In this document: one piece after another, positions 2,871-21,216 of the stretch
How the letters are laid out: every line of letters starts with the position of its first letter
Numbering within the stretch: the stretch's first letter is position 1
Origin: Myxococcales bacterium
Lineage (GTDB): Bacteria; Myxococcota; Myxococcia; Myxococcales; JAJYLH01
Assembly: GCA_021787845.1 (NCBI GenBank)
Contig: JAJYLH010000030.1
Coordinates: forward strand, 1-64,000
DNA: 64,000 nucleotides
Direction: 5' to 3'
Made by a program: the position numbers and the translations under genes
The notes under the pieces: model-generated
The model's input: only the letters and a program-made list of their open reading frames with translations
Databases searched by the model: none
What the model was told of the DNA's origin: nothing

Positions 2871-2935
2871 CGGTGCTGCCTCTCGCGTCCAAAGTAGCCG
2901 GAAAAGAATAACACGCGCCAGCGACGGAGCTGTGG

Positions 2936-3060
2936 ACCGCTCACCCGGAGCGGTCACCCTGAGCGCAGTCGAAGGACGAAGGGCGGGCGGTCCACCATGT
3001 TCCCGCCCGCTCTTCGACGAAGTTCGTCCTGAGCGTGCCAAAGGGCTCCGGATGAGCGGG
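2936..3060. repeat. Dispersed palindromic repeat, family A (REP-like)
   Basis: Holds a perfect hairpin GACCGCTC-N5-GAGCGGTC at 2936-2956 next to the core CCTGAGCGCAGTCGAAGGAC and a second, degenerate inverted core at about 3013-3032. The same core recurs at 6117-6203, 26772-26824, 33196-33321 and 47409-47495, always between genes. This core is widespread among high-GC bacteria as an intergenic REP-like palindrome. It may serve as a transcript 3'-end stabiliser or bidirectional terminator, or be a non-autonomous element. Confidence 0.7.
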
Positions 3061-3094
3061 AACGACCCCGCTACGCATCTGCTAGAAGGTCGCC

Positions 3095-3574
3095 ATGGCC
3101 GACCAGCGCTACCTGACGAAAGAGGGTTACGACCGGTTCTCGAAGGAGCACGACCAGCTCTGGAACGTGGAGCGACGCAAGGTCGTCGCCGAGGTGCAGG
3201 CGGCCGCGGCGCAAGGCGATCGGTCGGAGAATGCCGAGTACATCTACGGCAAGAAGCGGCTGCGGGAAATCGATCGCCGCCTCGAGTACCTGGAGAAGCT
3301 GCTCCGCGAAGCGGTGGTCGTCAGCCCTGCTGCTGACCGTCCGACCGATCGCGCGTTCTTCGGCGCGTTCGTCACCGTCGAGGACGAGGAGGGCAGCCGC
3401 TCGACGTACCAGCTCGTCGGCCCGGACGAGGTCGACGCCTCGCGGGGGCGCATCAGCATCGAGTCGCCGCTCGGGAAGGCGCTCCTGGGCAAGCGCCCTT
3501 TCGACGTGGTGCTCGTGCGGCGCCCGAAGGGCGATACCGAGCTGACCGTCCGTGCGGTCGCGGGGCAGCGCTAA
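3095..3574 (+). CDS. greB: Transcription elongation factor GreB
   Basis: Binds the RNA polymerase secondary channel and stimulates cleavage of backtracked RNA. At 159 residues it has the normal Gre length: an N-terminal antiparallel coiled coil with the acidic tip (GDRSENAEY, about residues 41-49) and a C-terminal FKBP-like domain ending in the VRRPKGDTELTV strand. The helix EYIYGKKRLREIDRR is the GreB rather than the GreA version. A GAAGG ribosome-binding site precedes the ATG. It stands alone; the next gene has its own promoter. Confidence 0.93.
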   Translation: MADQRYLTKEGYDRFSKEHDQLWNVERRKVVAEVQAAAAQGDRSENAEYIYGKKRLREIDRRLEYLEKLLREAVVVSPAADRPTDRAFFGAFVTVEDEEGSRSTYQLVGPDEVDASRGRISIESPLGKALLGKRPFDVVLVRRPKGDTELTVRAVAGQR

Positions 3575-3627
3575 AGGGGACTAGCCCCGGCCACCCGATG
3601 GTTATCGCCACGCTCGCCTTATCGCGC

Positions 3628-3656
3628 TTGACGCGAGGGGCGCACTTCCCTATGGT
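3628..3656 (+). promoter_or_regulatory. Sigma-70-type promoter for the TPR/BamB genes
   Basis: TTGACG at 3628-3633, a 17-nt spacer and TATGGT at 3651-3656. The -35 box matches the consensus at 5 of 6 positions, the spacing is ideal and the -10 box is good. A GAGG ribosome-binding site lies downstream at 3702-3705, followed after 6 nt by an in-frame TTG at 3712. The promoter therefore argues against the upstream ATG codons at 3598 and 3652. Confidence 0.6.
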
Positions 3657-3711
3657 TCGCGGCCTTTTCGCGTTCGCCTCGAAGGGTGAACGCTTTTTTG
3701 CGAGGCAAGCC

Positions 3712-4572
3712 TTGGCCCAAGTCAAGCGAGTGCGCAAGAAGGACATCCAGCAGGCGAAGCGGCCTGACGCCCTGCTGACGAAGGCGAACAGCCTCTTCGA
3801 CTGGTTGTGGGCGCGGCGCGTGGTGTCGCTTTCGGTGCTCGCCGGCGTTCTCGTGCTCGTCGCGGTCGTCACCGGCTTGCGGGCGTATGGGCAGGCGAGG
3901 GCGCACCGGGTCGGCGTCGAGCTGTCGAGCGCGGTCGGGCTCACGGCGCGCCCGGTGGGGCCGGCGGATTCGACGGGCGGCGCCAAGACGTTCCAGACCC
4001 AGGCCGACAAGCAGCAGGCGGTTTCGAGGGCGCTCGGCAAGTTGATCCAGGACCATCCCGGCACGGCGGGCGCGAGCGCTGCCGCCCTGCTCCGGGCCCG
4101 CGACGAGCTCGACCACGGGAAGACCGACGACGCGATTCGCGACTACCAGGCCTACTTGAAGAACGACGACGGCCGTCTAGCGCTCTTCGCCCACGAGGGG
4201 CTCGGCTACGCCTACGAGGCGAAGCACGACTGGGCGAAGGCGCTCGACGCGTTCGGGAAGCTCGCGGAGGACGGCGTGCCGGCGCGGGCGCTCTACCACG
4301 AGGCGCGCGTGCTCGCCGAGGAAGGCAAGAAGGACGAGGCGCGCAAGGACTTCGAGGAAGTGATCGCGAAGTACCAGACCGACGTGGTGGCGAGTGATGC
4401 GCGGGCCCGGCTCGACCTGCTCGACCTGCCGCCCGCGGGCGTGGGCGCACTTTCGGCGCCGAGCTCCGCGCCCGACGCTTCCGCGGTTCCCGAGCCGGCG
4501 AAGAAGGTCGCCAACCCGCACCATCCGCACCATCTTCGGGCGGGGACGGGCAAGAAGACCGCCCGGAAATGA
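3712..4572 (+). CDS. YfgM-like TPR membrane protein
   Basis: A predicted inner-membrane protein with a short cytoplasmic basic N-terminus (KRVRKKDIQQAKR), one transmembrane helix at about 36-56 and a periplasmic alpha-solenoid of TPR units. In the solenoid, repeats such as DAIRDYQAYLKN, WAKALDAFGKL and DEARKDFEEVIAKY are visible. This is the architecture of YfgM/TPR_21 proteins, which sit at the SecYEG translocon with periplasmic chaperones. The C-terminus is Pro/Ala/His/Lys-rich. The TTG start is chosen from its SD sequence and the promoter at 3628-3656; earlier ATGs exist at 3598 and 3652. A BamB-like gene follows, the same order as yfgM-bamB in enterobacteria, which supports an envelope-biogenesis role. 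Confidence 0.75.
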   Translation: MAQVKRVRKKDIQQAKRPDALLTKANSLFDWLWARRVVSLSVLAGVLVLVAVVTGLRAYGQARAHRVGVELSSAVGLTARPVGPADSTGGAKTFQTQADKQQAVSRALGKLIQDHPGTAGASAAALLRARDELDHGKTDDAIRDYQAYLKNDDGRLALFAHEGLGYAYEAKHDWAKALDAFGKLAEDGVPARALYHEARVLAEEGKKDEARKDFEEVIAKYQTDVVASDARARLDLLDLPPAGVGALSAPSSAPDASAVPEPAKKVANPHHPHHLRAGTGKKTARK

Positions 4573-4751
4573 GCATGCCTTTGGGGTTTCACGCGGCGGT
4601 CGGACGGGACAGCGTCTGGCGGATTCGCCCGCTCGCGGCTCCCCAGCGGCGCTGAGGCGTTCGGCTCGAGCGCTGTCTCTTCGGGCGTGAGCGACCGACC
4701 GGCACGGCGGCGGATCCGCGCGGATCGATCGCGCGAGCAAGGAGAGAAGGG

Positions 4752-5975
4752 ATGACGCGCGACCTCTCGCCTCGCCGGTCCAGGGCCGGTGCCGTGTGGA
4801 TCGCGCGCGCCGCGGGGCTTGCGCTCGCCGCTTGCGCTCTCGCTCCCCGTTCGGCCTGGGGCCAGGCCCGGCCGCGCTCGTTCGTTTCGCACGGATTCCT
4901 CACCGGCGGCGGGCAGGCGACCACCGGCGTTCCCGAGGCGCGACCCTACTTTCTCGGCTGGAACGCGCGGATCGATCCGCCCGAGGAGCTGGGCGCGTTC
5001 GAGACGCCGCTGGAGCCGGGGGGAGTAGCAGCGGACCCGAGGACCGGTTGGGTCTACGTTGCGACGCGACACGGGCGGGTGGTCTGCCTCGACGGAGGGA
5101 AGGTGCGCTGGAGCGTCGAGGTGGGCGCCTCGATTCTCGCGCCGCCGACCGTGTGGCAGGACTCGGTGGTGGTCGGCACCGGTCAAGGGGTGCTCGCGGT
5201 CCTGAACAAGGTCACCGGCGCGCGACGGGTGCGGGCGATCCTCGGCGACCAGCTCATCACGAAGCCGGTGGTGGTCGAGCAGCAGAACGGCCCGGCGATC
5301 GCGCTCGTCGGCTCGAGCCAGGACACGCTCTACGCGGTCGAGCTCCAGTACGCGCAGAAGCTGTGGACCGCGCATCGCGACCAGCCGGCGCCCTTCACCG
5401 TCTACGGCTTCGCGCGCCCCGTCGTGCTGCACGACAGCGTCTTCATCGGGTTCGCCGACGGCACCGTCGAGGCGCGCGACCTCACGACCGGCGCGCAGAA
5501 ATGGGCGCAGACCATCTCACCTTCGGGGTCCCTCGTCGACGTCGACGCGCTGGGCACCGACGGGCACCTCGTCTACGCCACCTCGTATTCGGGGGGGGTG
5601 TATGCGCTCCAGCCGGCCGACGGCGCTGCCCTCTGGCGGACGCCGATGAGCGGAGCGGCGCGGCTCCTGGTGGACGGCCCGCGAGTGATCGCGGTGGCGC
5701 CGGGCGTGATGCAGTCGCTGCGGGCGAGCGACGGCAAGGTCGAGTGGAGGTTCACCTTCGGGCACCGCATCGCCGAGACGCCGGCGGCGACGCAAGGGGT
5801 GGTCGTCCTCGCGCAGAACGGCGGGCCGGTGTATTTCGTCGACGAGCACACCGGCACCCCTCTCGGCCTGTTCATGAGCGGCTCCGGCACGGACTCGCCG
5901 CCGGCCATGAACGGGCAGATTCTCTTCGCCCTCACCAACGGCGGCCGGCTCTACTCGATGGCGGTGGTGCCGTGA
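4752..5975 (+). CDS. PQQ-type beta-propeller protein, BamB-like
   Basis: 407 residues with an N-terminal signal sequence (hydrophobic AAGLALAACALAP, cleavage probably after AWGQA). The mature protein is made of repeating blades of the PQQ/WD-like type, for example GWVYVATRHGRVVCLD, DSVVVGTGQGVLAVL, HLVYATSYSGGVYALQ and GPVYFVDEHTG. The fold and its place after a YfgM-like gene suggest a BamB-type outer-membrane-assembly scaffold. However, there is no Cys at a lipobox cleavage site after the signal (the LAAC at the core is possible but not ideal), so anchoring is uncertain. A GGAGAGAAGGG ribosome-binding site precedes the ATG. Confidence 0.78.
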   Translation: MTRDLSPRRSRAGAVWIARAAGLALAACALAPRSAWGQARPRSFVSHGFLTGGGQATTGVPEARPYFLGWNARIDPPEELGAFETPLEPGGVAADPRTGWVYVATRHGRVVCLDGGKVRWSVEVGASILAPPTVWQDSVVVGTGQGVLAVLNKVTGARRVRAILGDQLITKPVVVEQQNGPAIALVGSSQDTLYAVELQYAQKLWTAHRDQPAPFTVYGFARPVVLHDSVFIGFADGTVEARDLTTGAQKWAQTISPSGSLVDVDALGTDGHLVYATSYSGGVYALQPADGAALWRTPMSGAARLLVDGPRVIAVAPGVMQSLRASDGKVEWRFTFGHRIAETPAATQGVVVLAQNGGPVYFVDEHTGTPLGLFMSGSGTDSPPAMNGQILFALTNGGRLYSMAVVP

Positions 5976-6046
5976 GCGGGTGCGGCTGAGGCAGGGTGCG
6001 CTGGGATCGGCCGCACCCAACACCGGGCGCGCTCGTCGCCACGACC

Positions 6047-6084
6047 AGACCGATCGGTCCGATCCGACCGATCGGTCCTATCGG
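6047..6084. repeat. ACCGATCGGTCC repeat, family B
   Basis: Overlapping palindromes built on ACCGATCGGT, alternating with GATCCGACC. A second copy of the same design lies at 27809-27849. Both are between genes. They could form stable hairpins and may be a REP subtype. Confidence 0.65.
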
Positions 6085-6116
6085 CCAGGGCTTTCAAGGT
6101 GCGGCCTGAACCGGAG

Positions 6117-6203
6117 TTGCCGCTCATCCCTTTTGCGCAGTCGAGGAACGAGCGTCCTTCGTCCTTCGACTGGCGCTCAGGATGACCGCTCACGGCGAGC
6201 GGT
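6117..6203. repeat. Family A REP-like repeat between bamB and recJ
   Basis: Two degenerate inverted cores (GCGCAGTCGAGGAACGAG and GTCCTTCGACTGGCGCTCAG) flanked by CCGCTCAT and ATGACCGCTC, so the unit is itself an inverted repeat. It fills most of the 313-bp space between the convergent bamB-like and recJ genes together with the family B repeat; I see no gene there. Confidence 0.65.
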
Positions 6204-6288
6204 TCTTCGCTCGTTGGCACCTTGAATGCCCTGGTCCGATCGGCGCAACCCGGCCTGAGGTCCTCTCGGCGAGCGGGCGACCCCAGTT

Positions 6289-7989
6289 TCACGCGCGGGC
6301 TTCGATGGCCTTGACCCTGGCGCTCGCCCTAGTGCGACCGTTCCAGGTGTCGACGGTGAGCTGGAACGCGACTTGGGCGCGCTGGCGCAAGACGCCGAGC
6401 TTCTCGCCCATCCCGAAGGCGATGGCGTCCGCGGGGCCGAGGGCGAACTTGAGGTGGTCGGCGGGACCGCTCTTGGCGGGCAGCACCCGGGCTTCGAGCC
6501 CCTGGACCTCCGCCGCCAGGACCGGCTCCGGGTTGCCCATCCCGAACGGCGCGAGCCTCGCCAGCGCCTGCGCCAGCTCCAGCGTCGCGTCGGTCGCGTG
6601 GATGTCCGCGTCGATGCGCATCGAAGGCACCAGGTCTTCCGGCGAGAGCTGGCGTAGCGCCTCGTCCTCGAACGCGCGGGCGAACGCGGGAATCTCCTTC
6701 GCCTCCAAGTGCACCCCGGCCGCGTGGTGGTGGCCGCCGAACTTGACCAGGTGCTCGCGACAGCGCCCGAGGCCGGCGTACATGTCGAACGCCTCGATCG
6801 ACCGGCAGCTACCCTTGGCGGAAGCGCCGTCGACCCCCAGGACCACTGTCGGCCGGTGGTAGCGCTCCACGATGCGGCTCGCGACGATGCCGACGACGCC
6901 CGGATGCCAACCTTCGGCGTAGAGGACGAGCCCGCGCTTGCCGTCGAGGTGGCCCTTCGCCTGCAGGAGGGCCTGCTCGGTGATTTCCTGCTCGATTTCC
7001 CGGCGCTCCTGGTTCGCGCGGTCGAGCGTGGCCGCGAGCGAGCGCGCGCGCGAGGTGTCGGTCGCGAGCAACAGCTCGACCGCGGTGCCGGCGTCGTCGA
7101 GCCTTCCGGCGGCGTTGATGCGCGGCCCCAGCTTGAAGCCGACCTGGCCCGAGGTGACCGGCCCCTGCGCGATTTGCGCGACCTCCTTGAGCGCGCGCAC
7201 CCCCGGTCGCGCCGACTTCTCGAGCTCCTGGAGCCCGTGGGCGACGAGGATGCGATTCGCGCCGAGGAGCGGCACCACGTCGGCGATGGTGCCGAGCGCG
7301 ACGAGGTCGAGGTACGCGCGCAGGTTCGGCTCCGGCCTCGTGCGAAAGAGCCCCTCCTCGCGCAGGCGCTTGCGCAGCGCCATCAAGAGATGAAACGTGA
7401 CGCCGACCGCCGCCAGGTCCTTCGACGGGAAGGGACAACCCGGTTGGTGCGGGTTGAGCATCGCGACCGCGCGCGGCAGCTCGGCTGGCGCCTGGTGGTG
7501 ATCGACCACGACGACGTCGACGCCCGCTTGCGCCGCCCGATCGACCTCCTCGACCGCGGTGACGCCGCAGTCGACGGTGACGATGAGCTGGGTGCCCGCC
7601 TGCGCGAGCTTGTCGACAGCGCTCCCGTTGAGCCCATAGCCTTCGACCAGCCGGTGCGGGACGTAGTAGCCGACGTCGGCGCCGGTGGCCTCGAGGAACG
7701 AGACGAGGAGGCTGGTCGAGGTGACGCCGTCGACGTCGTAGTCGCCGTAGACCATCACCTTTTCGTGTTTGGCGATGGCGCGGGAGAGCCGTTCGACCGC
7801 TCGAAGCATGCCCTTCATCGAGAAGGGATCGGGCAAGTCCTGGATGCGAACCGAGAGGAAGCGCTCCGCCTCCTCGGGCGTCGAGATCCCGCGCGACGCG
7901 AGAATCCGCGCCGCGATCGGCGGCAACCCGAGCGCCGCCGCCAACGCGCCCGCCACCCGCTCGTCCGCCGCCTTTCGCATCCAACGCAT
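6289..7989 (-). CDS. recJ: Single-stranded-DNA-specific exonuclease RecJ
   Basis: A 5'-to-3' single-strand DNA exonuclease used in recombination and mismatch repair. The DHH phosphoesterase motifs are complete: YGDYDVDG at 81-88, TVDCG at 138-142 and VVDHHQ at 161-166. The GG-containing VKFGGHHHAAG motif of the DHHA1 domain lies further on, and the C-terminal OB fold ends near TVDTWNGRT. The 566-residue length is normal. It is convergent with the bamB-like gene and divergent from clpB. Confidence 0.95.
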   Translation of the reverse strand: MRWMRKAADERVAGALAAALGLPPIAARILASRGISTPEEAERFLSVRIQDLPDPFSMKGMLRAVERLSRAIAKHEKVMVYGDYDVDGVTSTSLLVSFLEATGADVGYYVPHRLVEGYGLNGSAVDKLAQAGTQLIVTVDCGVTAVEEVDRAAQAGVDVVVVDHHQAPAELPRAVAMLNPHQPGCPFPSKDLAAVGVTFHLLMALRKRLREEGLFRTRPEPNLRAYLDLVALGTIADVVPLLGANRILVAHGLQELEKSARPGVRALKEVAQIAQGPVTSGQVGFKLGPRINAAGRLDDAGTAVELLLATDTSRARSLAATLDRANQERREIEQEITEQALLQAKGHLDGKRGLVLYAEGWHPGVVGIVASRIVERYHRPTVVLGVDGASAKGSCRSIEAFDMYAGLGRCREHLVKFGGHHHAAGVHLEAKEIPAFARAFEDEALRQLSPEDLVPSMRIDADIHATDATLELAQALARLAPFGMGNPEPVLAAEVQGLEARVLPAKSGPADHLKFALGPADAIAFGMGEKLGVLRQRAQVAFQLTVDTWNGRTRASARVKAIEARA

Positions 7990-8111
7990 CGCCGCCTCGC
8001 TCGCTCTCCCACCCGGCGCGGGACTGTACCAGAGGGGTCGGACATGCCGCCGGATGGCTGGCGGTCAGGCTCGATGCTCTGCGGCTCGTCAGCGCGGCCT
8101 TCGTCGGTCCC

Positions 8112-8396
8112 ATGATTGGCAACCTGGCTGGGGGCTTCCCGAAGGAGCTCCGATTCGTGGCCGAGACTTTCGTATTGCTACAAGAGCAGCGTCATCGCGC
8201 GGATTACGATCGGTCGGCACCTTTGACCCGACAGGAGACATGCAAGTTCGTTGGACTGGCGGAGGAGGCTGCCCTGGCTTGGAATCAGATAAAGGCATCT
8301 GCCGCAGCCCGACTGTTCTTGATTCTACTGCTCGCTGGTGCCTCGCTGAAGCGGGGCAAGCGATCCCGGGCGCGGGAGAGTGCTTCCATCGCCTGA
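8112..8396 (+). pseudogene. C-terminal remnant of a HEPN-like hypothetical protein
   Basis: The 94-residue frame contains VLLQEQRHRADYDRSAPLT and a helical C-terminus. This matches the C-terminal pattern of a common HEPN-like family of hypothetical proteins, whose (L/F)QE-x-RH-x-ADYD core is followed by a helix with a conserved Trp. Full-length members have about 60-90 more residues. The frame stays open upstream toward the recJ start but has no good start codon or SD. It is the only coding signal in the 535-bp recJ-clpB spacer and is probably a decayed gene, though a short intact gene cannot be excluded. Confidence 0.4.
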
Positions 8397-8443
8397 CGAC
8401 GCGTGGAAGACAGACGGCCCGATCGACGGTCACCGCGGGTCTC

Positions 8444-8471
8444 TTGCCAGCCCCAATCGCTGTCTTACGTT
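8444..8471 (+). promoter_or_regulatory. Possible clpB promoter
   Basis: TTGCCA at 8444-8449, 16-nt spacer, TACGTT at 8466-8471, about 50 bp before the clpB ATG. The match to the sigma-70 consensus is moderate. I see no CIRCE inverted repeat and no clean sigma-32 promoter, so heat control is not evident from the sequence. Confidence 0.35.
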
Positions 8472-8524
8472 AGCGGGCGCTCGCGGCGTTCTTTAGAGCG
8501 CCGGACGCAAGGAGAGATGTCCTC

Positions 8525-11131
<2,607 letters not shown>

Positions 11132-11350
11132 CGGGCTACCCGGTTCGGCTAACCGAACGCAACAGATCCCACCCGCACAGCGAGGCGAGATTCTCGTCTC
11201 CGGTGCGAGGCCAGCGCGGCTCCGGAAGACCGGAGGGCGTTGAGGTGGAGTAGGATGCCGAGGAGCGCGACCGGGGCCTTTGCGAGCGCCGACGGGTTCT
11301 CATGGAAAGCATCACGGATTCCCGCATGATCGGAGCTTGGGCTCGTACAG

Positions 11351-11914
11351 TCAGTCAACGACGAAGGCCGTCGGGAATCCCGTCCACCGAACCGAACCGT
11401 CATCCTCGATGTGGGCTTCGCACGTCGCGATGGCATTGAGATCCTCTGGCCCGTATCGCCAGGAGATGAAGTGGATGCGCTGGTTACTCGATGCCAGCAG
11501 AGGCAGATCGACGGTCCTTGAAAGAACATATCGACCTGCGACGACGATATCTGCAAGAGAGAGGAGCTTGGTTGTGCCTCTAGAGCGGAGTTCGGCCAGC
11601 TCGTGTCCTGTGAAGATGAGCACCGAGAGTCCGCGCGAGCGAACGCCTTCGACGAACGGAACAAGGACCTCCGCTTGCGCGAATGGCTCACCACCCGAGA
11701 GTGTGATACCTTCGACGTCCCGGCTCTGATCCACCTCGTGAAGCAGAGCATCGACCGACATCATCCGTCGTGGCGCGAACGACCACGTGTCGGGGTTCCA
11801 GCATCCCTCGCAGCCGAGGCCGCATCCTTGTACCCAGAGCACGAACCGCTCGCCGGGGCCATTCGCGCGGCTGCGAGGAAGCCAGCGCGCTACGTTGATG
11901 AGGCGGCTGCGCAC
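11351..11914 (-). CDS. NrdG-like radical SAM protein (4Fe-4S single cluster)
   Basis: 187 residues with the radical SAM CX3CX2C motif at Cys31, Cys35 and Cys38, within VQGCGLGCEGCWNPDTW. This is the arrangement of NrdG/glycyl-radical-enzyme activases, and TLSGGEPFAQ is the SAM-binding GGE motif. No glycyl-radical enzyme is encoded anywhere in the window, so an ordinary NrdG role is unlikely. It starts with GTG immediately after the TGA of the DUF1257 gene and is the last gene of the seven-gene operon, so it is probably made together with the ATPases and DUF1257/DUF2997 proteins. The substrate is unknown; it may modify a partner protein or a nucleotide. Confidence 0.85.
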   Translation of the reverse strand: MRSRLINVARWLPRSRANGPGERFVLWVQGCGLGCEGCWNPDTWSFAPRRMMSVDALLHEVDQSRDVEGITLSGGEPFAQAEVLVPFVEGVRSRGLSVLIFTGHELAELRSRGTTKLLSLADIVVAGRYVLSRTVDLPLLASSNQRIHFISWRYGPEDLNAIATCEAHIEDDGSVRWTGFPTAFVVD

Positions 11915-12409
11915 TCAATAGGTCCTTCGCACGAGGACGAGCCGGACCTGCTCCTGGTTGCGCTCTACCTTGACCGAGTAGCCGAGCTTCTTCGCCTTGG
12001 TCTCAATTGCCGACCGCTGGGCCTCGACGAGTTGGCGCTTCCGCTCGCGCTCGCGTTCGAGCTCTTCGGCACGCAGGCGCGCGTCGCGCTCGGCCTCCCG
12101 TGCCCGATAGCGCTCGGCGACGCTCGACAGCCAGGCGCCGCCGAAGCGCGGCCGATCGTAGTCGCTCACGATCAGGCGGTACCCGGTAGGGGTGCTAAGG
12201 AAACCCAGATCGTTCGACGCGGCCGACAGGTGCTGACGACGCAGGATGATGTTCGCCACCTGAACCCGCGTGTCACCCTGGTATCCGACGAGCGGAAGTG
12301 GCTCCTCGCTCACCACTACCCGTTCCTCCACGAACCCGACGTCCGCCAGAGCCTGCAGGAGCAGGTCCCTGTCGATCATCGGGGTGGTAACGGTGATGTA
12401 CGCGCTCAT
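11915..12409 (-). CDS. DUF1257 (Ycf35-like) protein
   Basis: 164 residues beginning MSAYITVTTPMIDRDLL, the typical DUF1257 opening. The family is known from the plastid and cyanobacterial ORF ycf35 and has no established biochemical function. The first about 100 residues form the family domain (FGGAWLSSVAERY near its end). Next comes a strongly charged, probably coiled helix with R/E runs, then a C-terminal YSVKVERNQEQVRLVLVRR hairpin. Its ATG overlaps the DUF2997 stop by 4 nt (ATGA), and its TGA abuts the GTG of the radical SAM gene. DUF1257 and DUF2997 commonly occur together, so they likely work as a pair. Confidence 0.85.
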   Translation of the reverse strand: MSAYITVTTPMIDRDLLLQALADVGFVEERVVVSEEPLPLVGYQGDTRVQVANIILRRQHLSAASNDLGFLSTPTGYRLIVSDYDRPRFGGAWLSSVAERYRAREAERDARLRAEELERERERKRQLVEAQRSAIETKAKKLGYSVKVERNQEQVRLVLVRRTY

Positions 12410-12612
12410 TTCTTCCCCCCAATCTGCTGGGTTCGGCGGATGGTTTGCTGGGGAGGCGTCGCGGCCTTCCGGGTGACCGTCTGCGGCGCAGATGCGAGTC
12501 CTTCCAGAAGGGACTCGATCTGGCGTAGACACGCATCCCCTTCGAAGCCGCTCGCCTCGACCGACAACGCGCCGTCCTCGGCAATGTCCACCACAATTCG
12601 AGTCTCTTTCAT
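12406..12612 (-). CDS. DUF2997 small protein
   Basis: 68 residues, starting MKETRIVVDIAEDGALSVEASGF and holding a conserved-looking GDACLRQIESLLEGL helix. This is the beta-beta-helix plan of DUF2997 proteins, which are small partners of DUF1257. The C-terminal tail (RRTQQIGGKK) is basic and probably flexible. It overlaps both neighbours by 4 nt (ATGA at each end), so translation is coupled to the coiled-coil protein and to DUF1257. No biochemical role is established for the family. Confidence 0.82.
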   Translation of the reverse strand: MKETRIVVDIAEDGALSVEASGFEGDACLRQIESLLEGLASAPQTVTRKAATPPQQTIRRTQQIGGKK

Positions 12613-14585
12613 TTTCCCTCCGCCGGCCCAACGAGGCGTGCATGGAGCCGGTTTGCTTCACGTTCTCCGTCTGGCACCTCTTCCCAGGTCTCGATGGCGA
12701 GCATCCGCTCCGCGCCCACCTCGATCAACTCGCCCACGGCCGGCAGATCCTCGTCGGGCACTGGAGGCGCAGAGGCAGCCTGGGTCGGCACAAAGAGCGG
12801 TCCCGACTTCTTTTTCGACAGCAATGGGCTCGGCTCCTCCTGGAAGGTGAACACTGCGTTCGCCTGCTGCTCGCGGTCATCGATTCGCCGTTGGACGGCG
12901 GAGAGCCTCTGCTCCGTCTGGTGCCGGTCGGCGCGGAGCTTCTTCACGGCAGCCTTCGCATCGGCATCCTTCGCACCGCTCGAGTTGTCGGCAGGCTTCT
13001 CCGCGTCGGACAACCGCTCACGAATCTTCGCGAGATCGGCCTCCAGCGTTGCCTTCCGGGACAGCTCCTCGTCGAGGGCCGCCCGCGCCTCTTGGACGCG
13101 CTTGTCATGCGCCGCGCGCTCGGCGCGCTCTTGTTCGTTACGCCGCGTCTGGACTTTCCCATCCGCGAGCCGAGCCACCTCACCCGCGAGACGTCCGAGC
13201 TCATCGCTGACTTCAAGCGCATGGAGTCTCCCCGCCCCTGACGGCGTGTCCTTCGCCATTGCCGACAGACTCTGGCGAAGCGTCTCCGTTGTGCGCGAGG
13301 CTCCGAGGAAGAAGGACCGGAACCCCTCGAACGTCTTTTCGAGGGCTCCGCGATCGGCCTCGACCGCCTCGAGGTCCTGTTCGATCTTCTTGCGGCGGGA
13401 GTGGAACCACGTATCGAAGCCCTTCCAGGCGTCGACGAGCTTCGCGGCGCTGGCCTTGGCCGGGCGGGCGGGTGGCAGCACCTTCCATCGCCAGCGCACC
13501 TGGCGCGCGAGCGGATCGACCGGAGGAAAGCTCGTCGGTGAAGCGGACTCGATCTCAGCGAAGGATTTCGCCCGAACGACACCGGCGTCGATTGGAACTT
13601 CGGCGAGCGGCGTCCGGAAGGACGCGTCTTCGAGCAGCACATCGCCGTCTGCACCGCGGACCGTGGCGTCCGCTTCGAAGCGGGTCCGCGCCGCGTCGGC
13701 GAGCCCGGCAAGGGCTTTCGCCGTTGCAGGAGACGGCTCGGGAAGTTCGAGCCTCAGTGGCCGTGCCATCTCACCCTGACCGATCACCATCGACAAGAAC
13801 CCCTCGCCCGCTGCCAGCGCTGGTAGACGGAGATCGTCGTCGAAACGCAAGCGCTCGGCGCGCTGAGCGACCGCCCGAACGAGGGCGAACGACGCCGTCG
13901 CCGGCGTGAAGAGGCAGGCTGTCTTCGAGACGCCGAGAGCTTCCAGGTCGACAGCACTGTCGACGACCGCGACCGCAGCTTCCTTTGCCACGGGAGACGC
14001 GCTGAAAAACCGGGCAGGCGCCTCTGGAACTTCGAAAGGCGCGTCCAGTGACGGCTTGAACGTCGCACCATCGAGCGCCTCGTAGGGGGCCGCCCAGAAC
14101 GCGCGAAGAAAGACCTGGAAGGCGGCGGCCGACACGTCGCCAGACAGGCGCATCCAGCCGATGTCGACCGCGCTCGGAGCGTGAAGCACCAGGAGCGCGG
14201 ACTTGCCGCGCCCGCCGATGACCAGATCGCAGTCGAGCCAGCCGCCAGTACGGGCGAGCAACTGCTTCGTCTTCCCGAGGAGCTTCCGATCATCTTCGGA
14301 CGAACCGAACGTCGGTGCGTGCAGATAGGTACGAACGCCGTGCTCCAGACAGCCACCCAGGAGCCGCCGGGCCAGCGTCGATGGCCTCGACGAGAGCGCC
14401 ACACAAGCGAAGTCGTTGCCTTCCAGAACCTCGCCGAGAACGCCAGCGGTCAGCAAGGCGGGGGGGTCGAAGACCCTCGGAGGCCGCTCGCCTTCGCGAC
14501 GAATCCAACACGGAGGCAGCTTCTCGTCGAGCCGCGATTGCACGCGCTCGCGTTCGACCGGTCCGATTCTCCCGGTGCGCGTCAC
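12609..14585 (-). CDS. Coiled-coil protein of unknown function in the Ycf46-helicase operon
   Basis: 658 residues, GTG start overlapping the preceding stop as GTGA. I do not recognise the family. About residues 1-200 look globular, with alternating hydrophobic strands (FACVALSSRP, CDLVIGGRGKSALLVLH) and an SDVS-containing helix region that might be a degenerate nuclease or PLD-like fold. The middle is a mixed domain with APARFFSASPVAKEAAVAV. From about 385 to 590 it is a long coiled coil rich in E/R/K/Q with LEADLAKIRERL-type heptads. The tail is Pro/acidic. A scaffolding or SMC-like bridging part beside a helicase and an AAA+ ATPase is possible but unproven. Confidence 0.75.
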   Translation of the reverse strand: MTRTGRIGPVERERVQSRLDEKLPPCWIRREGERPPRVFDPPALLTAGVLGEVLEGNDFACVALSSRPSTLARRLLGGCLEHGVRTYLHAPTFGSSEDDRKLLGKTKQLLARTGGWLDCDLVIGGRGKSALLVLHAPSAVDIGWMRLSGDVSAAAFQVFLRAFWAAPYEALDGATFKPSLDAPFEVPEAPARFFSASPVAKEAAVAVVDSAVDLEALGVSKTACLFTPATASFALVRAVAQRAERLRFDDDLRLPALAAGEGFLSMVIGQGEMARPLRLELPEPSPATAKALAGLADAARTRFEADATVRGADGDVLLEDASFRTPLAEVPIDAGVVRAKSFAEIESASPTSFPPVDPLARQVRWRWKVLPPARPAKASAAKLVDAWKGFDTWFHSRRKKIEQDLEAVEADRGALEKTFEGFRSFFLGASRTTETLRQSLSAMAKDTPSGAGRLHALEVSDELGRLAGEVARLADGKVQTRRNEQERAERAAHDKRVQEARAALDEELSRKATLEADLAKIRERLSDAEKPADNSSGAKDADAKAAVKKLRADRHQTEQRLSAVQRRIDDREQQANAVFTFQEEPSPLLSKKKSGPLFVPTQAASAPPVPDEDLPAVGELIEVGAERMLAIETWEEVPDGEREANRLHARLVGPAEGK

Positions 14586-16261
14586 GACAGCTTCTCCCAG
14601 GCAGTTCGCAGCTGGTCAGGCGTCTTGGACTGCAGCGTGAAGTTCACGTCGTTCCAGATCAGCGGTGTCTTGAGATCGATGGTGTCGATGCTCACGCCCG
14701 GCTCGGGCCGCGCATGCACGAGGCTGTGTGTAGCGTGGATCGTCGACGGCGAGCGGCCCTCACCGTAGAGGATATACCGGCCGTGAAGCTCGGGACCTGT
14801 TGACAGCTTTCGGATGTCAAGGGGCTCCGACCCGACGAGCTGTCGCAGCTCCTTGCCAAGAGCGTTGCCCGCGGGGTCGTTCGCGACACGCGTGACGATG
14901 CCGATATGGAGGTCGGCGGAGTCGGCACGAAGCGCCTCCACCAACGCCCGAAGGACAGGCAGGGTACGATGGTCGATGTGCTTGTCATAGATGACGCACT
15001 TCTTGGCGCCGGCCACGCTCAGCGCTCGTACGAGCCACGCCATAGAGCGGCGCTCCTTGGGGGCTATCGTCAGCAACACCGCGTTGGTCCCTTCGTTCAC
15101 CGGTGGCGGTTGCTTGAGCGACACCCGCGACAGCCATTCGGTAGGCTCCGCGCTCGGATGCAAATCGACAGCCGCCCGCAGTCGCCAAGCCAGGGCCTGA
15201 TCTTTGTCCTTCGAAGCCTCGCGGACGAGGTCCTCGTGCGAAGGCAACACAGGCTCGAACTCCTCGAGCGGCGTGTCGATGATGAGGTCGTAGAGCCGAT
15301 GGAGCAGGTCGCTGCGCGAGACGTAAGCCGTAGCTTCGGCTCGAACCGCGTCGAGGAGCATCCAAATGGCCCATTTCTGCGCCTCGGCACCGTCGAGCGG
15401 CGCGATGGGCATTCCTGTCACCGTGCATGCCGCAAAGCGGTCAAGGCTGGGCACGTCCACGTTTACGAGGGTTAGCGTCATGTGAAATCGCGTGCGTGCG
15501 TCTTGGTCGAGCTTCTCGGGGTCGAATTCGACCCGGAGCGTCCGCGTCTCCGGATCCCAACGCCCGAACTTCGCGGCGACCTGAAACCAGCTCTCGAACA
15601 GGGACCACGCGTCCAACTTCGGCCCTTGTTCCGGCCGTTCAGGCACATCGTGCTCACCCGTATTAGACCGAAACCGTTCCGAGAGCTGCCAGTCGGAATG
15701 GTCTGCTCGATGGGGATCGATGTGCAGGACAAGCTGAATTCGCCGGTTGTCGATCAGGTGAGCCTTCGCCGCCTCGCCGCGCGGCGCGACCAGTCGGCGG
15801 AGCATCCACGTCTGGTCGTCTTCCCACGAAGGAAAACGAACATCTGTTGGCAGGCCATACAAAGGCTGCGCCGTCGGCGCCGGTCCACCCGCCGCCTGGG
15901 CCTCCAAGCGCACGACGTTGAAGATCCGGGTTCCGAAGATCGGATCGGTGCCGAGAACGAGCTCGTACAGCCCGGACTCGGGAATCGGCACGAGGCCCGA
16001 TTCGGCTGCGTCGCGACCCTGCGAGGTGAGCGCGCCGCTGTCGTCGATCAGCTCCAGCCGGCGCAGATGGTCTTCCAGCCCTCGAGCGCCGCCAGGCCCC
16101 AGCCCCGGCAGCACGGCCTCGATCACCTCGAGCCCGAGGCGGCCGCGCTCTTGCGCCTTGCTAAAGAGCAGTTGCAGCTCGGGGCGCTTCTCGAAGGTCG
16201 CGAGCTCGCCGATGACCTGCCACCGCTGGAGAAGAACGTCCCTCCGCAGCTCGATTTGCAT
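14582..16261 (-). CDS. Winged-helix protein with PLD-like C-terminus, unknown function
   Basis: 559 residues starting MQIELRRDVLLQRW; the ATG lies 2 nt after the helicase stop, and a frame open 45 bp upstream overlaps that gene. The N-terminal about 95 residues look like a winged-helix module (HLRRLELIDDSGALTSQGRDAA). A large middle domain carries aromatic-rich strands. The last about 150 residues hold KKCVIYDKHIDH, then LHIGIVTRV and LHGRYILYGEG. The last resembles the HxR-Y variant of the phospholipase-D HxK motif seen in bacterial defence proteins, but the Lys is missing, so catalysis is doubtful. It could be a nucleic-acid-binding or nuclease subunit for the adjacent helicase. The family is not recognised with certainty. 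Confidence 0.72.
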   Translation of the reverse strand: MQIELRRDVLLQRWQVIGELATFEKRPELQLLFSKAQERGRLGLEVIEAVLPGLGPGGARGLEDHLRRLELIDDSGALTSQGRDAAESGLVPIPESGLYELVLGTDPIFGTRIFNVVRLEAQAAGGPAPTAQPLYGLPTDVRFPSWEDDQTWMLRRLVAPRGEAAKAHLIDNRRIQLVLHIDPHRADHSDWQLSERFRSNTGEHDVPERPEQGPKLDAWSLFESWFQVAAKFGRWDPETRTLRVEFDPEKLDQDARTRFHMTLTLVNVDVPSLDRFAACTVTGMPIAPLDGAEAQKWAIWMLLDAVRAEATAYVSRSDLLHRLYDLIIDTPLEEFEPVLPSHEDLVREASKDKDQALAWRLRAAVDLHPSAEPTEWLSRVSLKQPPPVNEGTNAVLLTIAPKERRSMAWLVRALSVAGAKKCVIYDKHIDHRTLPVLRALVEALRADSADLHIGIVTRVANDPAGNALGKELRQLVGSEPLDIRKLSTGPELHGRYILYGEGRSPSTIHATHSLVHARPEPGVSIDTIDLKTPLIWNDVNFTLQSKTPDQLRTAWEKLS

Positions 16262-16263
16262 GC

Positions 16264-19200
16264 TCAACGTAAACCTCCTCTCCGGTTCGTGGGCGCGGAC
16301 CGCCACTCGGGCTGTCCGCCCAGCGCGGTAAGCTCCTCGACCCGGTGCCGTTCAGATTTCCAGTACTCCCGCTTGCCCACGAGCACGAGCTGCTGTCTCG
16401 CGCGCGTGATGCCGACGTTCAGGCGGTTGAGGCTGTCGAGAAAACCCTTGCGACCGGTGTTACGAAAGCTCAGAAAAACCAGATCGGCCTCGCGTCCCTG
16501 GAAGCGATCGACGGTCCCGCAGACCAGGTCGACGTTGGGCATCTCGAACCGCAGTCTCTTGGTACTCCCCGTCACGTTCTTCATCATGCCGGCGAGTGCC
16601 TCCTGCTGGCCGAGGTAGAAACTCAGGATTGCCACCTGCCACCGGGGCTCGTCCGGTCGGGCCGGCGGAAACTTCTCTGCCCAGGCGAGGAATTCCAGCA
16701 GCTTCACTCGGATGGCCTCGACTTCGGCGAGGTTGCGTCCGCGGTCCTCGCGCCCATCGACGTTCAGCCAGCAGGAGCGGGCCGGAGGAGGCACGGTCCA
16801 CCTCGGGGCCCATCCGAGTTTCTCGTCGCGACACTCGATGGTGTTCGCGTCCTGGAGGCGTGTCCCCTCATAGAACCGCTCGCGTGGGAAGGCGGCGATG
16901 TCCGGGTGCATCCTGTGTTGAAAGGTCAGCGGCTCGAACCGTTCCTGCCAGGCATGTTTCACGCGCTCGGTCGCCTCCTTCGAGTCGAAGCCCACTCCGA
17001 GCAGACTGTCACGTCGTGCGAGCGAACTGCGAACGCCTTCCTGCAAGCTCTCGATGATGCTCGGGAGCGCAATCTGCTGGACCGACTCGATGGCCTGACC
17101 TATGCGGACCGTCGCCGGCTCCAACTGAGCGATCTCTCGGACGAGGTAGTCCCCTTTCGTCGGCCGAGCCTTCAGCTCATGCTGCCGGATGAGCCTCCAG
17201 GCGAGCTCGCCTGCCCAGGTCTTCTCAGCAAAGGCCTTGGCAACGTGCCTTTCCAGTTCCGGCAAGTCGCTCACCGGCTTGCCGTGCGTGCCACGTGGTT
17301 GCACCTTGAGCGGGCCCTTCAAGAGCGCCGCGTGGCGAAACTCGAAGGGCACGGGCAACCTCTTGGGCCGCGGTACGACACACGCTTCCGGCGGGAGGTG
17401 GCGCCAGACCCGAGGGAGCAGCGGCCCTGGAACGAGTACGACGTTGGCGGCGGACACCGCGAGCGCACGCGGATCGCCGCCCTCCAGATCGGCCACCTCG
17501 ACCTGGCGAAGCCGGGGACCATCCCTCCGCCCATTGGCTCGCTCGACGATGCGAACGACAAGCCCCTCCGGTCCGCGGCGAAGAAGCTCGTACCGCTCCG
17601 CCGCAGTGGACTCCGCGTCCGTCGCTCTCTTGGGCGTCGTGAACTCGTCCCAGAGCGCCTGAATGACGGGGTCGGACTCGACGACGACCCACTTCGCGCC
17701 GCAATGATCGAGCTGACCGAGCTCGAAGAGCACGTGGCAGGCCCGCTGCAGGTTCTCTGGAATTCGCTTGTGGTCTTGCTGCGAGTGGTTCGAGTCCTCG
17801 TCGAGCTGGGCCTGCGTGAGATTGGCCACGAGCTCGGCGCGGTCGGCGAACGGCGCGAGCTGCCGCTTGTCGCCGACGATGATCCACCTCCGGGCAAAGG
17901 CCGCGGGCACCAGGAACTCAGGAATGGTCGTCTTGCTCGCTTCGTCGACAATGAGAACATCGAACAGCGGCTGGCCGAGTCGCTGGTGTTTGCGCAGCTC
18001 CGCGTCGCTCAGCTTTAGCCACGGATGCGACAGGATCCCGGTCGTCGTGCTGCACACGAGGTTCGCCGCGTCGAGCACGAGCTTCCTTGCTGCGTCGGCT
18101 ACGTCCACGCCGGCAGGGAGGGTCTTCCCGGCGCGTAGGCTCTGCTCGAGCTTCTCGACCCTGGCCTCGTAGCGAAACCGTTCCAGCTTCTCATCGACTC
18201 GCTCAGCCCGGCCGATGCGGAGCGCGAAAACCTCCGGATACTTCTCCTCATCGGCCAATCGCTCCAAGACGTTGTCGATGGCATAGTTGGTCGTGGCACA
18301 AAGCAGAACCCGCTGATGTCGCTCGATGCACTGGAGGACCAACTCGCAGATGGCAGTGGTCTTCCCGGAGCCCGGCGGGCCTTCCAACACCGCGAGGTCC
18401 GGGGTACCCAGCGCCTTGCGCACGAATTGCCGCTGCTGGTCGGTCCCGCTACGTTCGGGATCACATAAGACCCGCCATTCCGGCTCGGGGGCGGGGGTCG
18501 CGGACGGCAAGTAGACCTTGTCCCGGGCCTCGAATAGCCGTAGCAACGGGCGATGGTGCTCGAGCGGCGCCTCCTGCAGTCGGTAGACCACGGCCTGCCG
18601 CATCCGCAACTGGCGCGTGTCGAGCGGCAGGCACAGGAACGGCTGGTCATCCGGCGGCATCTCTTTGACGCGAAGCTCGAACAGCTCACGGTCGCGGTCC
18701 TTCACCGTGAGGATGTTATCGGCCATCTTCGGCTTGCGAATAGTGTACCGCCCGATCTGTTCGCGTTTGATCGCCCAGACCTCGTTCTCGTCTGTGTCGA
18801 AGAAGGCCATGCGCGGGTCGACCCCGCTATCGCGGTCCGCTTCTTCGTCGAGCTCGAGACGTATCCAGCCTTTCCGGCCTCCGGAGTTGTCTTCATCGCA
18901 TTTGAACACACACTGCTGGTCGTCGCGCACACTGCCGGCGGGCTTGCCCCGGTCCGACGTGATGACGCCACCCTCGTGCAACTCGTAGCGCTTGCCCTTC
19001 TCGTCGGTAACGTGTCGGCCTACCGGCTGCGACGGCTGCACCGTGCGAATGCGCCAGCCATCCGGGACAACCACTTCGCCCTCCCGGCATAGGACTTTGA
19101 CACGTAGGCACGCGATGTTCTCATCGTCTTCGTCCGACGGGACTGGCGAGACCGGCTGCGGGCGCCCCTGGATGACGAGCGACGCCGGCACGGCACTAGG

Positions 19201-19632
19201 ATCGGCCTCCCGAAGCGTGACCACAAACCCTTTCCACTTCAGGCGGCCCGCCAAGATCGGAGCGTCGTCACCGAAGACGACTCGAAACTGCTCGCCGTGC
19301 CGCTCGATCCGCTCCGGACGAAAGTATCGCCTGTCGGCCGGGCGATAGAACTCCTCGTCGGAATCGATCGGCTCCTCGGGCGGAAGTCCATCGACAATCC
19401 ATCCGGCTTCACGCGCCAATTCGACATCGGTCGTCGTCGCCTTCAGCCGGAACCGGCGCGCCGTCGCCGGGCTCCACGCGACGACTGCGCTGACTTGGTG
19501 CTTTTCGGCTCCCTTGAGCGCCTGCTCCAGGAAAACCCGATAGGGCCGGAAGGCCGACGCGACCTGTTGCTGCACCGCGCGTGCTCGAATTTCGGGCTCG
19601 AGCGCCAGAAAATGAAGGTCGCTCGCTCCCAT
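16264..19632 (-). CDS. Upf1-like superfamily 1B helicase
   Basis: 1122 residues. The first about 390 have no recognised domain and include an acidic, beta-rich region. The helicase core then shows motif I LEGPPGSGKTT (about 416-426), Ia LLCATTNYAIDNVLERL, II VLIVDEAS, III IIVGDKRQLAPF, V GTVDRFQGREADLVFLSF and VI LNVGITRARQQLVLVG. This order and the DEAS box place it in the SF1B Upf1/DNA2/AAA_11-AAA_12 group, which moves 5' to 3' on RNA or DNA. A roughly 300-residue insertion separates motif III from IV (GPEGLVVRIVER to about KATERVKHAW). It starts 3 nt after the AAA+ gene and is followed after 2 nt by the PLD-like gene. Confidence 0.88.
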   Translation of the reverse strand: MGASDLHFLALEPEIRARAVQQQVASAFRPYRVFLEQALKGAEKHQVSAVVAWSPATARRFRLKATTTDVELAREAGWIVDGLPPEEPIDSDEEFYRPADRRYFRPERIERHGEQFRVVFGDDAPILAGRLKWKGFVVTLREADPSAVPASLVIQGRPQPVSPVPSDEDDENIACLRVKVLCREGEVVVPDGWRIRTVQPSQPVGRHVTDEKGKRYELHEGGVITSDRGKPAGSVRDDQQCVFKCDEDNSGGRKGWIRLELDEEADRDSGVDPRMAFFDTDENEVWAIKREQIGRYTIRKPKMADNILTVKDRDRELFELRVKEMPPDDQPFLCLPLDTRQLRMRQAVVYRLQEAPLEHHRPLLRLFEARDKVYLPSATPAPEPEWRVLCDPERSGTDQQRQFVRKALGTPDLAVLEGPPGSGKTTAICELVLQCIERHQRVLLCATTNYAIDNVLERLADEEKYPEVFALRIGRAERVDEKLERFRYEARVEKLEQSLRAGKTLPAGVDVADAARKLVLDAANLVCSTTTGILSHPWLKLSDAELRKHQRLGQPLFDVLIVDEASKTTIPEFLVPAAFARRWIIVGDKRQLAPFADRAELVANLTQAQLDEDSNHSQQDHKRIPENLQRACHVLFELGQLDHCGAKWVVVESDPVIQALWDEFTTPKRATDAESTAAERYELLRRGPEGLVVRIVERANGRRDGPRLRQVEVADLEGGDPRALAVSAANVVLVPGPLLPRVWRHLPPEACVVPRPKRLPVPFEFRHAALLKGPLKVQPRGTHGKPVSDLPELERHVAKAFAEKTWAGELAWRLIRQHELKARPTKGDYLVREIAQLEPATVRIGQAIESVQQIALPSIIESLQEGVRSSLARRDSLLGVGFDSKEATERVKHAWQERFEPLTFQHRMHPDIAAFPRERFYEGTRLQDANTIECRDEKLGWAPRWTVPPPARSCWLNVDGREDRGRNLAEVEAIRVKLLEFLAWAEKFPPARPDEPRWQVAILSFYLGQQEALAGMMKNVTGSTKRLRFEMPNVDLVCGTVDRFQGREADLVFLSFRNTGRKGFLDSLNRLNVGITRARQQLVLVGKREYWKSERHRVEELTALGGQPEWRSAPTNRRGGLR

Positions 19633-19635
19633 CGG

Positions 19636-21216
19636 CTACTTGCCCTCGGACGCCGGCACGAAGGGATTGTGCCACTCCTGCCTGAGGCGGGGAGTGGACT
19701 TGTCCGCTTCCGGCAACGCCTCGGCCTCGTCCGCGGACGCCGACCGGGCCCGCACCCGCGCCCACTTGCGCAGCGCCTCGATCTCCTCGCGCATGGTTCG
19801 CGAGAGCGGATAGGTGTCCTTCAGCGCCGACTCGATGTGCTCATCCTTTACCTCGACGCTCTCGGCGAAGGCCCGGAAGAGTCCCTCCCGGACGGCCTCC
19901 TCGAGCTCGGCGCCCGAGTAGCCGAGCGAGGCAGAGGCGAGCCGAGCAAGGTCGAAATCCTCTGGCTTGCGTCCCTTTCGTTTGAGGTGGATTCCGAGGA
20001 TGGCCTCACGGGCGTTGCGCGACGGGAGGTCGACGAAGAAGATTTCATCGAAGCGGCCTTTGCGCATGAGCTCTGGCGGGAGTTGATCGACACGGTTCGC
20101 CGTGGCCACGACGAACACTGGCGCCGAGCGCTCCTGCATCCAAGTGAGGAGACTCCCCACGACTCGGGCCGAGGTCCCGCCGTCCGTCTGTCCGGAGCTA
20201 CCGAGCCCCGACAGTCCCTTCTCGATTTCGTCGATCCACAGGACGCAGGGGGCGATAGCTTCGGTGACCTTCAGCGCTTCACGCATCGAAGCCTCGGATT
20301 GTCCGATGAGGCTCCCGTAGACCTTGCCGACGTCAAACCGCAGCAACGGAAACTGCCAGGTACTGGCGATGGACTTCGCGATGAGGCTCTTGCCGCAGCC
20401 CTGCACACCGAGGAGCAGCACGCCCTTGGGGGTGTCGAGGCCGTACTCGCGAGCACCCGGTGTGTACGCACGCCCGCGCTGCTCGAGCCATTGCTTCAGT
20501 CGATCGAGGCCACCGACATCTTCGAGCGTCCGATCCGGTTCGAAATACTCCAGCACCTCGCTCTGACGGATGACCCGCTTCTTCTCCCGTGCCACAAAAC
20601 CCACCGCGCTGGCGTCGAGCCGTCCCAACTCGACCGCCGCCTGCCCGAAAGCGAGGTCCGCCTCCATCACCGTGAGCCCGCGAGCAGCATCGAGGAGCGC
20701 CGGGACGGGCTGGGCCTTCTTGCCGAGCCGATGCCCGACGCGTTGGCACACCTGCTCCAGGTCCTCCGGACCGGGAAGCGGCAGCTCGACCTCGGGAATT
20801 TCCTTGCGCAGCTCGATCGGGAGTCCCGGTATCGGCGTCGAGAGCAGCAGCAGGAGGCGCGGAGTGCGCCCCGGACGCGCAAGTTCCCGCAGCCGCCGGA
20901 TTTGCTCGTCGTTTCCCCGATCCGGCGCGAGAAACGGATGGAAGTCCTCCATCACCACCAACGCCTCGTCCTCCCGGCCCTCGAGCCAGCGCAACAACTC
21001 CAGCGGATCGTTGAGCCCATCCTCGCGCAACTGCTCCTCTTTCAGCTTCCAGAGCCCCCGCGGGCGGCTCCACACCTCGACCGGGAAGCTCAGATCTTGG
21101 CCGATTTGGATTGCAAGTCCCTGGATCCGCTCCCACTCGTGGCTCGTCACCTGGATCACCGCCGCGCCGGTGCGGGCGAGACGAAGAAGTTCCTCGTAAG
21201 CGGTCTGCCGCGGCAT
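19636..21216 (-). CDS. Ycf46-like AAA+ ATPase
   Basis: 526 residues. A Ycf46-type N-terminal domain (about 1-225: [35 protein letters not shown]) precedes an AAA+ module. The module has Walker A GVQGCGKS (270-277), Walker [11 protein letters not shown] (325-334), sensor 1 VVATANRV and the [10 protein letters not shown] second-region-of-homology arginine. This is the plan of chloroplast/cyanobacterial Ycf46 proteins, related to FtsH/classical AAA ATPases but without transmembrane segments or a protease site. It is the first gene of the seven-gene reverse operon; the SD GGAGG lies 6 nt before its ATG. Likely an oligomeric remodeller that serves the operon's other products. Confidence 0.88.

Follow-up and report, generated by a model that had tools for sequence, protein, structure and literature searches.

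What is the seven-gene operon that lies between clpB and envelope genes in the genome of a Myxococcales bacterium? The window analysed here is a stretch of 64,000 nucleotides (nt) from this genome (assembly GCA_021787845.1, contig JAJYLH010000030.1, positions 1 to 64,000), and the operon fills positions 11,351 to 21,216 on its minus strand. An original prediction, made from the sequence alone, had proposed that it is an acquired and undescribed system for defence or nucleic-acid repair. We find that it is a real, mobile and co-inherited seven-gene system. Its genes, here called A to G in the order of transcription, encode proteins of the following lengths in amino acids (aa):

Gene A, 19636..21216, minus strand: 526 aa; AAA+ ATPase of the Ycf46/CDC48-like class (Pfam AAA, 1.9e-29)
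Gene B, 16264..19632, minus strand: 1122 aa; UPF1/SMUBP-2/DNA2-like superfamily 1 (SF1) helicase with a long N-terminal extension (Pfam AAA_11, 2.3e-33; AAA_12, 1.1e-29)
Gene C, 14582..16261, minus strand: 559 aa; N-terminal helix-and-long-strand domain and C-terminal phospholipase D (PLD)-fold domain, as predicted by AlphaFold2 and Foldseek
PLD-fold domain of C, 14585..15079, minus strand: approximately residues 395-559, with an HxR motif at 493-495
Gene D, 12609..14585, minus strand: 658 aa; predicted PLD-superfamily fold (~1-380), coiled coil (~382-575) and small conserved C-terminal domain (~619-658)
Gene E, 12406..12612, minus strand: 68 aa; DUF2997 (Pfam 25.7 bits, cut-off 24.1)
Gene F, 11915..12409, minus strand: 164 aa; DUF1257, Ycf35-like (Pfam 22.8 bits, cut-off 22.2)
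Gene G, 11351..11914, minus strand: 187 aa; NrdG-like radical S-adenosylmethionine (SAM) protein (Fer4_12, 1.1e-30; Radical_SAM, 2.2e-7)

The seven genes are tightly coupled. Read from the sequence, the junctions are a 3-nt gap between A and B, a 2-nt gap between B and C, overlaps of GTGA (C/D), ATGA (D/E) and ATGA (E/F), and 0 nt between F and G. The list of open reading frames (ORFs) and the junction reading thus bear out the coordinates and junction lengths first reported. Pfam likewise upholds the proposed family labels of A, B, E, F and G; structure prediction and hhalign show that the labels “PLD-like” and “coiled-coil” were incomplete for C and D, neither of which has a significant Pfam family. 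No PADLOC, NCBIfam or Pfam model names the system, and the comparison with PADLOC models that had been suggested as a check matched no named system. A scan for promoters and terminators gave no signal above the shuffled background.

The seven genes are conserved together well beyond this genome. A helicase profile search over one genome per species yielded 80 loci. We refer to operons with the AAA, DUF2997, DUF1257 and radical SAM genes around B-C-D as type I. The type I set occurs in 15 loci, in the order A-B-C-D-E-F-G and with overlaps mostly of 4 nt. These loci are the window, L012, L008, L013 (Pseudomonas sp. A-1), L014, L015 (contig ends), L016, L017 (Paraliomyxa), L018, L019 and L021 (Phycisphaerae), L020, L024, L025 (Desulfobacterales) and L034 (Kuenenia); L007 is the same as L012, a second copy of the G014 locus, and was counted once. 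The carriers span Myxococcota, Pseudomonadota, Planctomycetota and Desulfobacterota, and two near-identical contigs filed as viral in IMG/VR also hold a type I operon. Searches of Myxococcota genomes had already found two complete sets besides that of the window, in genomes G014 (60-86% identity) and G084 (32-60%), both of which are among the 15. An additional match of the first phylum search (G083/L011) was discarded because a GC-rich ORF had been matched there by chance. Joint conservation is what the original prediction had staked itself on, and it is found here.

Departures from the common pattern are few. In L025, G precedes F. L020 is otherwise complete and has no G in its downstream flank. 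The helicase gene of the Kuenenia locus (9950-13260) carries a frame break, either genuine or an assembly error. In L008 and L017, C is shortened and lacks the PLD-fold part. The start positions of a few E, F and G genes were set by hand before later comparisons.

Sequence comparisons indicate that the seven genes share one history of inheritance and transfer. Pairwise distances are correlated for each of the 21 pairs of genes (r 0.75-0.985; observed value reached in 0/999 permutations), which suggests inheritance as a unit. Two Phycisphaerae loci (L019 and L021) share 79% identity across the operon, at 8372-17928 of both, and not outside it; their flanks are unrelated. One of these (L019) is also 91% identical to a locus filed as viral (L121), over a 13-kb block that runs from just upstream of A through a serine integrase (phrog_95, 6.9e-124). 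The clpB and upstream envelope genes of the window are not found beside the G014 copy. Furthermore, of 193 Myxococcota genomes, only 6 have a D-type homologue, and in two of the 6 the match is weak or partial. Operon-only identity, the integrase block, changed flanks and sporadic distribution together argue that the operon travels, so the claim that it was acquired is borne out by its homologues. A viral origin was considered and rejected: the ten ORFs that adjoin the operon in the IMG/VR contigs include the integrase and no phage structural genes. A plasmid search with C found no match; the same search with B found three replicons, of which the one examined (NZ_CP049815.1) carries a related operon of another type.

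Base composition adds little to this argument. The operon had been called less GC-rich than its neighbours, as expected of an island. Its GC content is 0.653 against 0.688 for the remaining window, but the adjoining clpB is at 0.661 and 10 of 109 operon-sized windows are as low as the operon or lower. This is poor evidence of an island, given so small a difference and a clpB whose GC content is just as low. Our claim of mobility therefore rests on the comparison of homologues and not on base composition.

Three alternative regulators accompany the B-C-D/PLD core. In type I these are the AAA, DUF2997, DUF1257 and radical SAM proteins. In type II (L009, L022 and L023), B-C-D are followed by vWA and PP2C genes, and a Ser/Thr kinase was identified in L009. 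In type III (about 35 loci), B and C are followed by a DrmC-like PLD with two HKD motifs and by an RtcR-like CARF-AAA-HTH regulator (PADLOC RtcR_PspF1, 1.7e-148), that is, a sigma54 activator. Because related operons hold vWA/PP2C/kinase or RtcR/CARF sigma54 genes in its place, we read the AAA-DUF2997-DUF1257-radical-SAM set as an interchangeable regulatory cassette. A switch of regulatory cassettes appears to be the best reading of these operons, but not the only one. The helicase tree joins types I and II, with type II beside L008 (ultrafast bootstrap 100 in one tree). An approximately unbiased (AU) test that included L025 rejected the monophyly of type I (p = 3e-6). The trees of C and D gave no resolution.

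The predicted biochemistry of the core points to nucleic acid. A search of the B profile against the PDB (hmmsearch) retrieves UPF1 (1.9e-40) and SMUBP-2 (4.9e-36), and places B among the UPF1-like SF1 (CnuH-like) helicases. Its best PADLOC score is MkoA (5.1e-79), with the best stretch confined to the helicase region (profile positions 510-873 of 1112). Gene A appears degenerate in its N-terminal half and active-looking in its C-terminal AAA domain. The Walker A and B motifs of A do not vary among the 14 full-length type I homologues, 13 of which have RKGRFDE; identity across type I loci is 47-84%. In PADLOC, A resembles IetA-like AAA proteins, with a match over the ATPase core only.

Structure prediction, which had also been suggested as a check, places a PLD fold in both C and D. 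The AlphaFold2 model of C, built on an alignment of 33 sequences, has a mean predicted local distance difference test (pLDDT) score of 89.8. In Foldseek, its C-terminal part resembles MITD1 (PLD-like C-terminal domain; target template modelling score up to 0.67, probability 1.0), SauUSI, BfiI and Tdp1. H493 and R495 are invariant in the 13 type I proteins with the PLD-fold part, and this H-x-R, a putative catalytic site, is a variant of the HxK motif. The PLD-fold tail is restricted to type I and is absent from L008, L017, type II and type III. The N-terminal domain of C, modelled as helical and long-stranded, is common to all three operon types, and a few members have weak Pfam matches to families that we take to be winged-helix. 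By its position and by the published description, it is probably the elongated winged helix-turn-helix (wHTH) domain of CnuE-type proteins.

The model of D, from an alignment of 16 sequences, has a mean pLDDT of 86.8 and combines a coiled coil with what appears to be an inactivated PLD fold. D aligns with the active DrmC-like PLD of type III operons (hhalign probability 99.6, E 2e-24). Foldseek matches it to NucT, Zucchini, Nuc and PPK1 at probability 0.96-1.0, with no E-value below 1e-3. The His of both HKD motifs is lost in 16/16 D sequences, whereas the HKD residues are invariant in 18/18 type III homologues. D is most likely a non-catalytic PLD scaffold, since neither His is kept in any of the 16. 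Thus, a PLD nuclease has apparently turned into a non-catalytic coiled-coil component, and a second PLD-fold domain appears in the adjoining subunit C.

E, F and G carry strongly conserved residues. Cys28 of E is invariant in 15/15 type I proteins and present in all stand-alone DUF2997 proteins examined. F ends in Arg-x-Tyr, with R162 and Y164 invariant in 14/14, and the CxxxCxxC and GGEP motifs of G are invariant in 13/13. G scores 96.1 bits against NrdG (TIGR02491), under the cut-off of 126.1, and no NrdD gene is present among the seven. We considered a glycyl-radical site in F or E as the target of an NrdG-like activase, and rejected it: F has a widely shared G-[YF], which L008 lacks.

The trio of A, E and F is a module that also exists by itself. 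DUF2997 and DUF1257 both score above their Pfam cut-offs here and accompany a Ycf46-like AAA gene, and stand-alone modules of Ycf46-like AAA, DUF1257 and DUF2997 occur in Myxococcota without the helicase. The AAA proteins of type I operons match those of the stand-alone modules along the greater part of their length, at 41-50% identity. The window's own genome holds a second, stand-alone AAA/DUF1257/DUF2997 module on another contig (C21; 3.6-6.0 kb of locus L112). In two loci (L115 and L119), an AAA gene, a small zinc-ribbon-like membrane protein, DUF1257 and DUF2997 stand alone with a radical SAM gene alongside, in differing orientations. In cyanobacteria, DUF2997 and Ycf35 adjoin the ferredoxin Fed7 (PMC4284462), and freshwater red algae tend to have lost ycf35 and ycf46 together from their plastids (PMC5940233). 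AAA, DUF2997 and DUF1257, often with an iron-sulfur (Fe-S) protein, are thus a recurring combination. From its position and from the alternatives in the sister operons, we infer that this combination may act as a switch.

The core of the operon belongs to a class that has already been mentioned. Bell et al. (2024) report that the gene after a helicase of this family typically encodes an elongated wHTH joined to an effector, usually a nuclease, with RNA as the inferred target (PMC11090510). The CnuH/CnuE-type operons and CoCoNuT systems resemble ours in having a UPF1-like helicase followed by a protein that joins a conserved domain (the elongated wHTH, probable in C) to a variable nuclease-type effector, as well as coiled coils. 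They also include vWA/PP2C/kinase triads and RtcR/CARF regulators, and one extended subtype has a CDC48-like AAA ATPase. In contrast, the set of AAA, DUF2997, DUF1257 and radical SAM proteins is not described in that paper (PMC11090510), and the terms radical SAM and DUF2997 are absent from its text. CoCoNuT, an McrBC-derived type IV system, calls for an McrB-family GTPase (CnuB) and an McrC homologue (CnuC), and our operon is not one. The window's genome yields no hit to the McrC family PF10117, and three of the 15 carrier genomes have one. The McrC of L020 is part of a separate McrBC pair just upstream of the operon. No McrB GTPase is found among the seven genes, although no dedicated search for McrB was made.

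Comparison with other systems gives a similar picture of shared parts in a different assembly. Type III operons carry homologues of the helicase, C and PLD/D in unchanged order, but their PLD has two HKD motifs, their regulator is a CARF transcriptional regulator and their C has no PLD-fold tail. The cyanobacterial and plastid DUF2997-Ycf35(-Ycf46)-ferredoxin cluster also places DUF2997 beside DUF1257 and an Fe-S protein, and bacterial stand-alone modules include a Ycf46-like AAA; unlike our operon, the cluster has no helicase or PLD proteins, and has a ferredoxin in place of the radical SAM enzyme. DISARM shares with type III a DrmC-like PLD, but the operon has no DrmA-type helicase, DUF1998 protein or methylase: Pfam, NCBIfam and PADLOC gave no match to DrmB/DUF1998, methylase or DrmA in the seven proteins, so DISARM was rightly set aside. 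The “undescribed” system first proposed is therefore new in part, as no model names it and its regulatory set is apparently undescribed, while its B-C(-D) core is of a known kind. A prior description is possible, as most subscription papers lay outside our literature search, within which two papers mention DUF2997, neither of them in connection with defence.

Some copies of the operon lie beside defence-type genes. In L008, the G084 copy, a SAVED gene overlaps A, a caspase-like gene lies downstream and a Ser/Thr kinase gene upstream (1908-3005 and 13916-17600). L017 has SAVED-CHAT and kinase-TPR genes nearby, and L034 has ZacB-like and SNF2/DISARM-like genes. In L020, genes for McrB-like, McrC and SF1 helicase proteins (the last with weak NERD and UvrD similarity) lie directly upstream in the same direction (759-8363).

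We consider that the operon is probably a single mobile conflict system, most likely of an anti-phage or abortive-response kind, whose target is RNA or single-stranded nucleic acid, with A and E-F-G as its switch. A function in conflict is likely, and defence against phages is our inference. B would load on the target nucleic acid and feed it to C, while D would serve as a scaffold or nucleic-acid clamp. A would supply ATP-driven remodelling, and E-F-G would supply Fe-S/radical SAM chemistry, perhaps on or through the invariant Cys of E. Together, A and E-F-G may arm or release the B-C-D core. More tentatively, and with rather less confidence, the Ycf46-DUF2997-DUF1257 set could in general be an AAA-driven Fe-S/radical SAM switch of a partner machine, which here replaces the kinase/phosphatase triad or the RtcR/CARF activator. 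If true, this would reveal a new mechanism for arming a prokaryotic immune system and give plastid ycf35 and ycf46 their first functional lead. The operon also places DUF2997, DUF1257/Ycf35 and Ycf46, which range from bacteria to plastids and whose function is not known, in an assayable setting. With the same core under three regulators, the role of each regulator becomes testable by exchange. In any case, an apparently undescribed seven-gene member is added to the UPF1-like helicase operons.

The same genes might instead serve nucleic-acid repair or recovery from stress. UPF1 relatives act in RNA surveillance. Here, oxidative or antibiotic stress would leave damaged RNA or stalled ribosome/RNA complexes for the helicase and PLD-fold proteins to process, and the Fe-S/radical SAM and AAA proteins would act as remodellers that respond to redox state. 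The ferredoxin beside cyanobacterial DUF2997 and DUF1257 (PMC4284462) would suit this role, as would the RtcR/CARF-like activator of type III operons, given that RtcR responds to damaged RNA (PMC7790460, PMC9650030). We nevertheless regard repair as rather unlikely, since the patchy distribution, the integrase-linked transfer and the defence-type neighbours fit a conflict system better. The proposal of a defence or repair system is supported in part: the unit is real, conserved and mobile, with several copies beside defence-type genes, but it is not isolated.

Two further explanations seem less probable still. One is that G modifies the invariant Cys of the 68-aa protein E, which works as an effector or as a signal peptide, with the helicase and PLD proteins as partners or targets. 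A small protein with an invariant Cys28 beside a radical SAM gene invites this idea, and radical SAM proteins also adjoin some stand-alone DUF2997 modules (L115 and L119). However, the operon has no exporter, leader-like repeat or protease, G is closer to NrdG-type activases than to SPASM/sactionine enzymes, and one locus (L020) has no G at all, which leaves peptide modification improbable. The other makes the operon a variant of Mokosh in which the kinase and PLD parts were split or lost. Mokosh shares a COG1112-type helicase with our operon, PLD and kinase occur in the wider family, B scores best with MkoA, and sister operons with the same core hold a kinase or an active PLD. For that last reason, the missing kinase, on which the original prediction had set Mokosh aside, is insufficient by itself. 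The conclusion stands on gene content: Mokosh joins its helicase to a kinase (Mokosh type I) or to a fused active PLD (Mokosh type II), whereas the MkoA match covers the helicase only, A to G are kinase-free and D has no catalytic PLD motif. Four genes are also extra, and we know of no counterpart of A, E, F or G in Mokosh. A Mokosh variant is thus very improbable.

Several observations weigh against a mobile conflict system with a regulatory switch, which we still prefer. The remaining loci, including the window, have no defence-type genes in the parts examined; such neighbours occur at a minority of loci and were counted without a matched control, and are thus suggestive only. G and the PLD-fold part of C are not indispensable everywhere, as L020 has no G and L008 and L017 have no PLD part. 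MITD1, the best structural match of the PLD domain of C, is to our knowledge not an enzyme. The existence of helicase-free modules suggests that the AAA-DUF1257-DUF2997 trio has another, general role too. Finally, when the divergent L025 is left out of the AU test, the monophyly of type I is not rejected (p = 0.109), so a cassette swap toward type II is not proven. For this reason, and given the trees of C and D, we do not treat an origin of type II inside type I as demonstrated.

Type III is a widespread four-gene operon. Its loci are L010, L027-L033, L035-L065, L079 and L122, and its carriers include Corallococcus (L010/L079), Pseudomonas, Marinobacter and the conjugative plasmid NZ_CP049815.1. 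Archaeal relatives (L050, L056 and L061) have the helicase, C and PLD, with no match to the regulator. In Corallococcus carmarthensis (L010), a divergent GmrSD restriction gene (13033-15009) lies beside the type III operon.

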